From: Pelagibius sp.
Lineage (GTDB): Bacteria; Pseudomonadota; Alphaproteobacteria; Kiloniellales; Kiloniellaceae
DNA length: 52,069 nt
Direction: 5' to 3'
Assembly (NCBI RefSeq): GCF_028289705.1
Contig: NZ_JANQOI010000097.1
Coordinates: 1 to 52,069, forward strand
The notes under the pieces: generated by a model
Database searches by the model: none
What the model was told of the DNA's origin: nothing
The model's input: only the letters and a program-made list of their open reading frames with translations
Translations under genes and position numbers: made by a program
Shown: in pieces, positions 12,194 through 50,081 of the stretch
How positions within the stretch are numbered: the first letter of the stretch is position 1
Layout of the letters: every line of letters starts with the position of its first letter

Positions 12194-13818
<1,625 letters not shown>

Positions 13819-13852
13819 GCCAAGTCCTTCCCTTCCACTTTCTGGTTCTTCC

Positions 13853-14782
13853 GTGGCACTCCTCATCAAGACCGACATCGACCGCGGCAATGCCTGGACC
13901 GAAGCCCTGGCCGCCGCCTATCCCGAACTGACCACCCACACCTGGCCCTACGACGGCGACCCGGCGGCCATCGACTACGCCCTGGTCTGGCAACCGCCGG
14001 AGGGCGAGTTGAAGCGCTATCCGAACTTGAAGGCGATCTTCTCCGTCGGCGCCGGCATCGACCATCTGGCGAGCGACCCGGACCTGCCCGAGGGCGTGCC
14101 GGTGGTGCGCATGGTGGAGCCGGGGCTGACCGCCGGCATGTCGGAGTACGTGACCCTGGCGGTGCTGAGCCACCACCGCTTCCTGCACGACTATGCCGTC
14201 CAGCGCCGCGACAAGCTCTGGAAGGAGATCCCCCAGATCGCCGCGGCGGCGCGCCAGGTTGGCATGCTGGGGCTCGGCGTTCTGGGGCGCGACGCCCTGG
14301 AGAAGCTGGCGCCCTTCGGCTTCAAGCTGGCGGGCTGGAGCCGCACGCCCAAGAGCATCACCGGTATCTCCTGCTATCACGGCGAGGAGGGCCTGCGTGA
14401 GTTCCTGGCGGGCACCGACATCCTGGTCTGCCTGCTGCCGCTGACACCGGCGACCGAGGGCATCCTCTGCCGCGAGACCTTCGATCAGCTCCCCCGCGGT
14501 GCCGCAGTGATCAGTGTCGGCCGCGGCGGGCATCTGGTGGAAGAGGACCTTCTGGCGGCGCTCGACAGCGGCCGGCTCAGCGGTGCCACCCTGGACGTCT
14601 TCCGCGAGGAACCGCTGCCGAAGTCCCATCCCTTCTGGGACCACCCGCGCATCTTCATGACCCCCCACGTGGCCAGCATGACCATCCCCGAGAGCGCCTG
14701 CCAGGCGGTGGTCGCCAACATCCACCGCCTGGAAGCCGGCGAACCCCTGCGCCACGTCGTCGACATGGCACGCGGGTATTAG
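13853..14782 (+). CDS. ghrA: Glyoxylate/hydroxypyruvate reductase A-like D-2-hydroxyacid dehydrogenase
   Basis: The roughly 309-residue NAD(P)H-dependent cytoplasmic reductase has the GhrA pattern. It shows a short N-terminal catalytic half, a nucleotide-binding loop VGMLGLGVLGRDAL, an arginine motif VGRGGHLVEEDLL, an aspartate/glutamate region TLDVFREEPLP and the catalytic histidine in MTPHVASMT. The proposed start is GTG 13853 (ALLIKTDI next), which matches the family start. An in-frame ATG at 13781 would overlap the end of yejF by 38 bases and add 24 residues; no clear ribosome site decides between them. It could be cotranscribed with yejABEF; the physiological substrate is inferred. Confidence 0.85.
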   Translation: MALLIKTDIDRGNAWTEALAAAYPELTTHTWPYDGDPAAIDYALVWQPPEGELKRYPNLKAIFSVGAGIDHLASDPDLPEGVPVVRMVEPGLTAGMSEYVTLAVLSHHRFLHDYAVQRRDKLWKEIPQIAAAARQVGMLGLGVLGRDALEKLAPFGFKLAGWSRTPKSITGISCYHGEEGLREFLAGTDILVCLLPLTPATEGILCRETFDQLPRGAAVISVGRGGHLVEEDLLAALDSGRLSGATLDVFREEPLPKSHPFWDHPRIFMTPHVASMTIPESACQAVVANIHRLEAGEPLRHVVDMARGY

Positions 14783-14790
14783 CCAACACC

Positions 14791-14911
14791 GTCATGCTCG
14801 AGCCCGCCTGCGAAGCCCCAGCGGGCGGCGCGATGGACCCTCGGGACAAGCCCGAGGGTGACGGGATTAAACCTCAATTGTCATGCTCGGGCTTGTCCCG
14901 AGCATCCATGG
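14791..14911. repeat. REP-like palindrome cluster upstream of the GIY-YIG ORF
   Basis: Three palindromic units lie head to tail. Unit 14833-14863 has the stem CCCTCGGG and CCCGAGGG around ACAAG. Unit 14880-14911 is an inverted copy with arms TGCTCGGG and CCCGAGCA, so the sequence differs but pairing is kept. A more divergent hairpin (GCCCGC ... GCGGGC) lies at 14799-14826 and begins with the same GTCATGCTCG. The conserved asymmetric flanks ATGGA and TGACG give each unit a direction. The same family recurs at 15221, 49995 and 50048. Confidence 0.85.
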
Positions 14912-14929
14912 TGGTGACACGCTCGAGCC

Positions 14930-15712
14930 TTGGCTTACTACGTCTACATCCTCGCGAGCCACAGGAACGGTACCCTCTACATCGGCGTGACCAATGATTT
15001 GTTGCGGCGCGTTCACGAACATCGGGAAGGGTTCGTCGCCGGATTCACCAAGCGTCATGGAGTGAAAAGGCTCATCTACTTCGAGACCTACGATCAAGTC
15101 GAACCGGCGATCCAGCGAGAGAAGACGATGAAGCGCTGGCCTCGCGGATGGAAAATCAACCAGATCGAACGCGAGAACCCAAATTGGGAGGATCTCTACG
15201 AAGGCTTGAGCGGCTCAGAAATGGACCCTCGGGACAAGCCCGAGGGTGACGCGATGGGAGGTCGTGGGGCCTTTGCCCCCTATGCGTGGTTGAGAGCCCT
15301 ACTACCCCTCCAGCGTGCGGGCGGCTTCGGCGGCGAGGTCGGCGAACTCGCGCAGGAAGACCGAGCCTTTCACGGTGCGCTGAACCAGGACCGAGCGGCG
15401 GTCGGCCTCGTCGGTCTTGCGGCGCAGGAATTCCAGCGCCTCCAGGCGGTCCAGAGCGCGGGTGACCGCGGGCTTGGAGATGTTCAGCAGCGCCGCCAGC
15501 CCGCGCACGGTGTGGGGCGGGGCGGCCTGATAGACATGCAGCAGCAGGGCGAACTGCCGCGCCGTCAGATCCGGCAGGGCGCGGTTCAGCGAGGTGACCA
15601 TGACGCTGTGCCAAAGGGCCAGCGCCTGGCCCGGCGTCAGAAGCGGCGGGGCGGCCATCGGTCAGACCGGTTGTCGTTACAGGTGCGAAACAAATTCTGC
15701 CGATTTGCTTAG
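14930..15712 (+). CDS. GIY-YIG endonuclease-domain protein, C-terminus read through a REP palindrome
   Basis: Residues 1-95 form a compact single-domain GIY-YIG nuclease of the YhbQ/UPF0213-like group: AYYVYILAS (the GIY strand), TLYIGVTNDLLRRVHEH (the YIG strand with conserved Arg) and AIQREKTMKRW (candidate metal-binding Glu). Such proteins normally stop at about 95-100 residues. Here no stop follows: the frame runs into a REP-like unit, read as MDPRDKPEGD at 98-107, and continues 150 residues opposite marR. The tail is almost certainly not a domain. The start is TTG 14930, because an in-frame stop at 14915-14917 excludes any earlier start. Flanking palindromes on both sides suggest a link between nuclease and repeats. 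Molecular role unknown. Confidence 0.65.
   Translation: MAYYVYILASHRNGTLYIGVTNDLLRRVHEHREGFVAGFTKRHGVKRLIYFETYDQVEPAIQREKTMKRWPRGWKINQIERENPNWEDLYEGLSGSEMDPRDKPEGDAMGGRGAFAPYAWLRALLPLQRAGGFGGEVGELAQEDRAFHGALNQDRAAVGLVGLAAQEFQRLQAVQSAGDRGLGDVQQRRQPAHGVGRGGLIDMQQQGELPRRQIRQGAVQRGDHDAVPKGQRLARRQKRRGGHRSDRLSLQVRNKFCRFA
15221..15251 (+). repeat. REP-like palindromic unit
   Basis: A single unit in plus orientation: ATGGA, stem CCCTCGGG / CCCGAGGG around ACAAG, then TGACG. It is identical over 31 bases to the unit at 14833-14863. It lies in frame at codons 98-108 of the GIY-YIG reading frame and replaces the expected stop region of that gene. Confidence 0.85.
15302..15658 (-). CDS. MarR-family transcriptional regulator (short)
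   Basis: The 118-residue protein has a winged-helix DNA-binding domain. The pattern is TARQFALLLHVYQ, then the recognition region TVRGLAALLNISKPAVTRALDRLEAL, then the wing LRRKTDEADRRSVLVQRT. This is the MarR layout, but the chain is shorter than the usual 140-150 residues, with a reduced N-terminal dimerisation helix. The ligand and targets are unknown. It lies about 100 bases downstream of the aminopeptidase gene on the same strand and may share its transcript. It is entirely opposed by the read-through tail of the GIY-YIG frame. Confidence 0.85.
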   Translation of the reverse strand: MAAPPLLTPGQALALWHSVMVTSLNRALPDLTARQFALLLHVYQAAPPHTVRGLAALLNISKPAVTRALDRLEALEFLRRKTDEADRRSVLVQRTVKGSVFLREFADLAAEAARTLEG

Positions 15713-49994: not shown

Positions 49995-50081
49995 CGTCAC
50001 CCTCGGGCTTGTCCCGAGGGTCCATGGAAAGACCGAGACTCGGACCGCCATGGATTGCCGGAACAAGCCCGGCAATGACGG
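49995..50081. repeat. Inverted pair of REP-like palindromes
   Basis: Unit 49995-50027 is in minus orientation with arms CCCTCGGG / CCCGAGGG. Unit 50048-50081 is in plus orientation with arms ATTGCCGG / CCGGCAAT around AACAAG. The two share the flanks CCATGGA and TGACG and face each other across 20 bases, as in REP doublets. The stems differ in sequence but keep pairing. They fill much of the 357-base gap 49820-50176 between the aminotransferase (upstream side) and the DUF427 gene end; I see no gene there. Confidence 0.85.

Follow-up and report, generated by a model that had tools for sequence, protein, structure and literature searches.

A small GIY-YIG nuclease gene bracketed by CGTC-type REPs in Alphaproteobacteria as a candidate driver of the repeats

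Analyzing a 52,069-nucleotide stretch of the Pelagibius sp. genome (contig NZ_JANQOI010000097.1; hereafter the window) together with several sets of other bacterial genomes, we found that a small GIY-YIG nuclease gene lies between two inverted REPs with their tags pointing outward, and that this REP-nuclease-REP unit of about 370 bp recurs throughout samples of Alphaproteobacteria and in other proteobacterial classes. The association of nuclease and REPs is as good as certain to be real and general. The finding is made stronger by the fit of the repeats to a published family, the CGTC REPs, which were recorded in 2013 in five phyla with no dedicated enzyme, as far as the accessible part of that survey goes (Di Nocera et al. 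2013, BMC Genomics 14:522, PMC3733652). We regard the nuclease as the strongest candidate to date for an enzyme that disperses CGTC REPs.

Results

The nuclease unit in the window

The proposed mobile unit occupies 373 nt on the forward strand (14879-15251), its limits being those of the homology with a sister copy on contig C45 of the same genome. Its left REP (14879-14909, forward), recognized by sequence, by our REP detector, and by covariance model R2, which places it at 14879-14908 with 49.8 bits, carries a TGTC tag, a 9-bp stem, the 5-nt loop CTTGT, and the tail CCAT. The nuclease gene follows at 14930-15211 (forward) with a TTG start and a conserved part of 94 residues, identified by a PF01541 match of 55.2 bits and by its invariant residues. 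The right REP (15221-15251, reverse), supported by sequence, alignment, and detector, has its tag outward and in frame makes up codons 98-108 of the extended ORF. An earlier note, made from the letters of this DNA, had described a small nuclease ORF between REP-like palindromes and a 31-nt unit repeated in frame at codon 98. Both descriptions are borne out: the flanking REPs are inverted, and 15221-15251 is an exact copy of 14833-14863 within the ORF that starts at TTG 14930, the alignment of the two covering 35 nt at 97% with position 32 as the sole mismatch.

The same note counted three palindromic units upstream of the nuclease. Two are intact (14833-14863 and 14880-14909), mutually inverted, and 87% complementary in alignment, but the first (14790-14832) contains no full palindrome. 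Alignment and genome-wide pattern matches make 14833-14863 (reverse) a REP of the same type. It is probably the half that stayed intact in a degraded REP pair, whose left half and spacer are probably represented by 14790-14832 (forward). When aligned to the spacer of a long REP pair next to the C45 sister, the latter agrees in 24 of 29 columns, a score reached by none of 1000 shuffles; six of these columns are REP bases, and without REP bases 13 of 2000 shuffles reach the score. Thus, 14790-14863 as a whole is probably a degraded REP pair upstream of the unit.

The C45 sister has two stops directly after the nuclease domain. The window copy lacks them, and its frame reads through the right REP to 15712; therefore, it may either make a longer protein or be a gene in decay. 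This extension (15212-15712) amounts to about 165 further codons, with the REP-encoded peptide MDPRDKPEGD in frame. From their ORF translations, we take the upstream neighbor (13781-14782) to be a D-2-hydroxyacid-dehydrogenase-like gene and the downstream neighbor (15302-15658, reverse) to be MarR-like. The genome itself (5.41 Mb in 193 contigs, 96.9% complete) holds four GIY-YIG genes, namely two of the REP-flanked type (on C90 and C45), one distant gene, and one that is UvrC-like by length.

The repeats as CGTC REPs

The 29-base REP core has three exact matches in the window and none in 100 shuffles. Genome-wide, 84 forward and 84 reverse matches (168 in all, at most three mismatches) stand against 0 and 1 for a reversed-pattern control. 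Among 100 REP places listed in the genome, 62 belong to 31 pairs in which the two starts are separated by 56 nt, and every pair combines a CCCTCGG-type with a TTGCCGG-type REP or a close variant. One of these pairs is the 84-nt, stand-alone, head-to-head, REPIN-like pair at 49995-50080, with the CCCTCGG type at 49996-50023 and the TTGCCGG type at 50052-50079 (the pair 49996/50052), and it is the inverted pair of the same repeat family that the earlier note had reported there. REPs usually form dispersed pairs; regular tandem arrays with periods of about 134 and 267 nt occur at G000:C166:32895-33191 in this genome and at G002:C3:41491-42054.

As described in the accessible part of the 2013 survey, CGTC REPs have a terminal CGTC or TGTC tag, a stem of 8-9 bp, a loop of 4-5 nt, and a CCA tail, form head-to-head dimers and heterodimers, and reside mostly in Alphaproteobacteria (PMC3733652). 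The window palindromes fit this family in tag, stem, loop, tail, and head-to-head pairing: the unpaired end tags are TGTC at 14879, CGTC ending at 15251 (reverse), and CGTC at 49995, the stem has 9 bp, the loop 5 nt, and the tail is CCA, and high copy number and dimers are evident from the 168 matches and the 31 pairs among 100 listed places. Statistics on stem pairing are partly circular, the alignment rows having been picked by pairing. They differ from the published description in one respect. CGTC REPs, in the words of the survey, "apparently lack a dedicated transposase", but here a GIY-YIG nuclease is associated with them. The survey, in the portion accessible, monitored transposase genes and left hypothetical ORFs shorter than 120 residues out of its intragenic set, and the term "GIY-YIG" occurs nowhere in PMC3733652.

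The nuclease is flanked by REPs across genome samples

Our detector accepts any base followed by GTC with an 8-bp stem of at most one mismatch and 3-8 nt between its arms, or a perfect stem with 9-25 nt between them, lying within 300 nt of the nuclease (250 nt for plasmid loci) with the tag outward on both sides. It was designed after viewing the two copies of the Pelagibius genome and the named-genome loci and was afterwards applied unchanged across samples. In 58 related genomes, 65 listed GIY-YIG places gave 63 entries after two split matches were merged; nucleases of at least 79 bits have REPs upstream in 27 of 33 cases, downstream in 27 of 33, and on both sides in 25 of 33, versus 0 of 349 background pairs. 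The 30 lower-scoring entries have an upstream REP in 3 cases, a downstream REP in 6, and both in 2, one of the latter being plainly and the other probably a fragment of the same nuclease type. Named genomes (64 loci, three dropped for short flanks) have REPs on both sides in 28 of 46 element-type loci, many of them orthologous and non-independent Bradyrhizobium loci, versus 0 of 15 loci of other GIY-YIG subfamilies and a background of 4 of 1096.

A class-wide sample of Alphaproteobacteria, including the C45 copy again, matched in 73 of 240 genomes, and 110 of 134 listed places were used, two being dropped for short flanks. REPs lie upstream of 47, downstream of 55, and on both sides of 40 of the 108 nucleases, with background values of 18, 16, and 0 of 319; a motif-free test finds flanking inverted repeats (score at least 14) at 58 of 108 nucleases versus 1 of 173. 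Counting against a mobile unit, 46 of these 108 nucleases have no detector REP. Many of the 46 loci show divergent GTC palindromes by eye, CGTCATTGCGAG types included, and at some (among them L274, L317, and L323) no GTC palindrome is visible by eye. The phylum sample matched in 81 of 299 genomes and gave 27 new loci. REPs flank those outside the class, ten of which come from one family (f174), upstream in 13, downstream in 14, and on both sides in 11 of 16, with background values of 5, 7, and 0 of 70; the 11 same-class loci, with 4 upstream, 6 downstream, and 3 on both sides, also count against a mobile unit. The expectation of the earlier note that such nuclease genes lie beside the repeats more often than by chance is thus confirmed in four samples (25 of 33, 28 of 46, 40 of 108, and 11 of 16).

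Plasmid-collection loci have REPs on both sides in 8 of 14 cases. Variant GTCAT or CCTCAT palindromes are seen by eye in Sinorhizobium, Planktothrix (Cyanobacteriota), and Spirosoma (Bacteroidota), the last two being, together with a detector match in Winogradskyella, scattered examples beyond the proteobacterial classes. A Planktothrix agardhii plasmid (L208:2175-3091) carries the nuclease and GTCATTCTGAG palindromes with an MmeI-type restriction gene on one side and the DISARM gene drmA on the other.

Since CGTC REPs are predominantly intergenic, according to the accessible part of PMC3733652, any small mobile gene might land beside them by chance or at a hot spot. We find this explanation hardly credible: it is contradicted by the background pairs given above, REPs do not bracket the other GIY-YIG genes found in the same genomes, and in the related genomes the orientation is fixed and the spacing often constant (22-30 nt before and 13-17 nt after the nuclease domain).

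REPs accompany the nuclease, not Y1 transposases

Covariance model R2, built from 28 REPs and run on the 58 related genomes with per-genome counts saturating at 127, detects REPs in 17 of 17 nuclease-positive genomes (median 78) and in 12 of the 41 that are nuclease-negative (median 0; p = 5.3e-7), in keeping with the proposal of the earlier note. Within genera, 63 of 5000 permutations of the nuclease-REP labels are as extreme. Matches are weak in two nuclease-positive genomes, G054 and G056 (best E 6e-4 and 8e-4), and scoring both as REP-less gives 15 of 17 versus 12 of 41 (p = 4e-5). Counting against a mobile unit, 12 nuclease-negative genomes do have REPs, and in two genera a nuclease-negative genome is REP-richer than positive ones (G035 versus G050; G040 versus G047 and G053). 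REPs in nuclease-negative genomes would fit loss of the gene with persistence of its repeats, because 8 of these 12 genomes have a nuclease-positive congener.

A second explanation has the REPs mobilized by Y1/HUH transposases (RAYTs) or by another insertion sequence, with the nuclease as a passenger. Some Y1_Tnp gene is indeed present in 29 of the 58 related genomes, but it shows no association with REPs, which occur in 17 of 29 genomes with it and 12 of 29 without (p = 0.29; 1996 of 5000 permutations within genera). The Pelagibius genome, at 96.9% completeness, has no match to Y1_Tnp (PF01797), and REPs are present both there and in its congeners G002, G005, and G006, all without Y1_Tnp. Four Y1_Tnp loci (L049-L052) have no REP detector match, and a 14-kb stretch with four more copies (L179) has three formal matches, none to the REP types of its genome, so that none of these eight copies in relatives adjoins a REP of its genome's types. 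Consistent with this, no tyrosine transposase gene flanked by CGTC units is reported in the accessible part of PMC3733652. We therefore judge mobilization by Y1/HUH transposases extremely improbable. The earlier observation that no RAYT accompanies the nuclease locus extends to the whole genome, no RAYT that could explain the repeats was found there, and Y1_Tnp genes do not predict REPs in the 58 genomes; the suggestion that a GIY-YIG nuclease holds the position of a RAYT in this REP system gains support from this and from the cross-genome association.

REP type follows the nuclease clade

The 12 nuclease-negative genomes with REPs also speak for a third explanation, in which a free-standing homing-like endonuclease cuts REP pairs and has lodged between two REPs that spread by other means. 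Such a rider is further favored by weak matches to GIY-YIG homing families (PHROG 5123, E 4e-4; TIGR01453, 16-20 bits, well below its cut-off of 56), and by single genomic sites that can hold units with differing nuclease sequences in either orientation. Against it, 29 of 41 nuclease-negative genomes have no REPs, and a rider predicts REPs that track the host, but the REPs observed track the nuclease clade. We consider it unlikely.

Mapped on a tree of 92 nucleases bracketed by REPs (93 columns, many forks unresolved), REP hairpin type changes 16 times compared with a shuffled mean of 45.9, and none of 200 shuffles is as low; near-copies at Bradyrhizobium loci add to this agreement. Both flanking REPs are of one type in 85 of the 92 nucleases. 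In comparisons between genomes, nucleases less than 0.65 identical have REPs of about 0.60 identity and those more than 0.75 identical have REPs of about 0.91 identity, and in 26 of 37 comparisons, which share rows, the REP resembles that of the closest nuclease from a different genome more than that of the neighboring paralogue (Wilcoxon p = 2e-4); the other 11 disfavor the nuclease relative and count against a mobile unit.

The GTCGTCCCGG REP type provides an example. It flanks one well-supported nuclease clade (support 98), present in G003, G004, and G007, and has 14, 58, and 27 copies in these genomes and none in 12 of 13 other genomes searched (Fisher p = 0.007, kinship ignored). The Pelagibius genome counts against a mobile unit here, with 12 GTCGTCCCGG-type copies in the absence of that nuclease clade. 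These copies lie on G000:C41, G000:C112, and G000:C119, and since some are at the very start of C41, the cognate nuclease is possibly missing from the draft assembly.

The nuclease protein

The profile match, the residues, and the predicted fold place the protein in the GIY-YIG superfamily. Y6, Y17, R27, H31, E64, N83, and W86 are among the residues invariant across 30 diverse aligned members, and we take Y6, Y17, R27, and E64 to be the catalytic Tyr, Tyr, Arg, and Glu. The AlphaFold2 model has a mean pLDDT of 87.1 and a pTM of 0.79, and Foldseek finds the UPF0213 protein 1zg2 nearest to the predicted fold (E 1.3e-4), followed by Slx1 chains (6seh and 7cq3; probability 1.00, E 0.009 and above). 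Because Slx1 is a branched-DNA nuclease, a palindrome extruded as a hairpin or cruciform would be a natural substrate for the candidate enzyme. Such genes carry the annotation labels "GIY-YIG nuclease family protein" and "excinuclease ABC subunit C". PADLOC gives no match that would make it a defense-system gene, and a tblastn search of 50,697 phage records at E 1e-5 has no match that would indicate phage origin.

These nearest folds, UPF0213 and then Slx1-Slx4, lend something to a fourth explanation, a housekeeping or policing role in which an Slx1-like structure-specific nuclease resolves REP cruciforms and is kept nearby, with the REPs spreading by another route. We deem it very unlikely, as it leaves unexplained the multi-copy gene, the limits of the unit at the REP tags, the deleted derivatives, and the absence of the nuclease from 41 of the 58 relatives. 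The UPF0213-like genes present in these genomes do not have REPs on both sides, and the conserved NPxWxDL tail of the REP-flanked clade is not seen in their aligned parts.

Unit boundaries and signs of mobility

The window unit and its C45 sister share 83.1% identity over 373 nt, from the first base of the TGTC tag to the last base of GACG, and their flanks are unrelated. In G007, the unit shared by two copies likewise starts and ends at the tags. Across 25 copy pairs at unrelated sites (five within a genome, with members shared and some right ends measured to a second REP), the left end lies at most 3 nt from the tag in 13 pairs, the right end in 8 pairs. Counting against a mobile unit, one G004 copy pair has a repeated unit reaching 48-57 nt past the tags. 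The nuclease gene is multi-copy, with up to 10 matches in one genome of the class-wide sample.

The window unit is absent from the orthologous sites in G001 and G005, where the flanking matches are 222 and 68 nt apart, respectively, versus about 526-530 nt in the Pelagibius genome, and G001 has no unit at the counterpart of a G005 nuclease locus either. The flanks of these empty sites are too diverged or carry other repeats for the junctions to be read. G001, which has no nuclease, carries another repeat, of the CCCTCCCC...GGGGAGGG type, at two sites where relatives hold a nuclease unit, L327 (G001:C63 near 38000) and L351.

At one Bradyrhizobium locus, 23 genomes were searched and 26 loci read, 21 of which have both anchors and represent 15 distinct sites. 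Most of them carry the nuclease unit or what is left of it. An intact or near-intact unit occupies some; G307 and G312, and G295 in shortened form, have a reversed unit whose nuclease sequence is a different one; internal-deletion derivatives keep both ends (G316 and second copies in L093 and L098); G298 has a degraded REP pair with no gene, and G313 unrelated sequence. In G297 (B. manausense; L367, orthologous to L096), the place of the nuclease unit seems by eye to be taken by a GTAG-type palindrome pair, as if two unrelated REP systems used one landing site. In Azospirillum lipoferum the unit lies between sufB and sufC (L210:2355-2975), and the nuclease is at the same place in two more genomes with matching flanks (L222 and L281), so that some insertions, such as this position shared by three genomes, look old.

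Filled and empty sites thus differ, with junctions blurred by divergence or by other repeats: the orthologous sites, syntenic stretches, and larger loci compared yielded neither a clean junction nor a target duplication, and no excision product, which counts against a mobile unit. The syntenic stretches G001/G005 and G003/G007 have no clean target duplication, the larger loci scanned gave 52 HSPs with two candidates, both ambiguous, and six Rhizobium phaseoli/etli plasmid stretches have neither convincing REPs nor a clean target duplication. As in insertion sequences and MITEs, terminal inverted repeats bound the gene and internal-deletion derivatives keep both ends. The comparisons strongly suggest that the unit moves and that it loses its gene by internal deletion, leaving REP pairs.

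Discussion

Evidence from the neighborhood alone cannot tell a mover from a passenger. Taking all lines together, we think that CGTC REPs probably belong to a small mobile unit with the GIY-YIG nuclease as its sole gene, forming both its ends and its non-autonomous derivatives, and that the nuclease likely moves the repeats. The REP-nuclease-REP unit would be autonomous, and the scattered REP pairs would be its deletion derivatives. The nuclease would recognize the REP hairpin, either single-stranded or as a cruciform, and may cut at the GTC tag; host replication and repair may then copy the DNA so freed or broken to another place or join it there. Host functions would be needed for joining because GIY-YIG enzymes hydrolyze DNA, and to our knowledge they do not join strands. 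On balance we lean slightly toward a broader view, in which bacteria harbor a large class of mobile elements with no enzyme other than a small GIY-YIG nuclease that acts on CGTC-tagged hairpins, and many GTCAT-type palindromes of proteobacteria, and perhaps of other phyla, derive from this class.

The system resembles RAYT/REPIN systems, in which GTAG REPs accompany a Y1 HUH transposase and REP type is matched to enzyme type: here, too, a small gene is flanked by REPs, non-autonomous REP pairs are scattered over the genome, and REP type is matched to the enzyme. In contrast to those systems, the enzyme is of the GIY-YIG and not the HUH kind, the tag is CGTC and not GTAG, and the genome has no Y1_Tnp. 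The nuclease unit is not a member of the RAYT class, because a REP-flanked Y1 HUH transposase and a GTAG tag were both looked for and neither characterizes it. With free-standing GIY-YIG homing endonucleases (I-TevI-like), which are selfish nuclease genes, it shares the catalytic residues and the apparent selfishness, but it has 94 residues and no long DNA-binding extension, is flanked by its own palindromes, and occurs in several copies at unrelated sites, accompanied by deleted derivatives. Its nearest solved folds are those of UPF0213 (1zg2) and Slx1 (6seh and 7cq3). Among the open-access matches listed, judged by title and start of abstract and with preprints excluded, no paper links GIY-YIG nucleases to REPs. 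We know of no REP system or bacterial transposon with this kind of enzyme, and the system therefore seems new in kind.

A gene that is bracketed by the REPs, matches their type, and predicts their presence offers a testable answer to the question of which enzyme serves CGTC REPs. If the nuclease moves them, this would be a mobile element driven by a hydrolytic GIY-YIG enzyme and not by a transposase, raising the question of how cutting without joining yields new copies. The small genes now labeled as GIY-YIG nuclease family proteins or excinuclease ABC subunit C would then also acquire a meaning, and a common class of intergenic palindromes could be traced on this basis.
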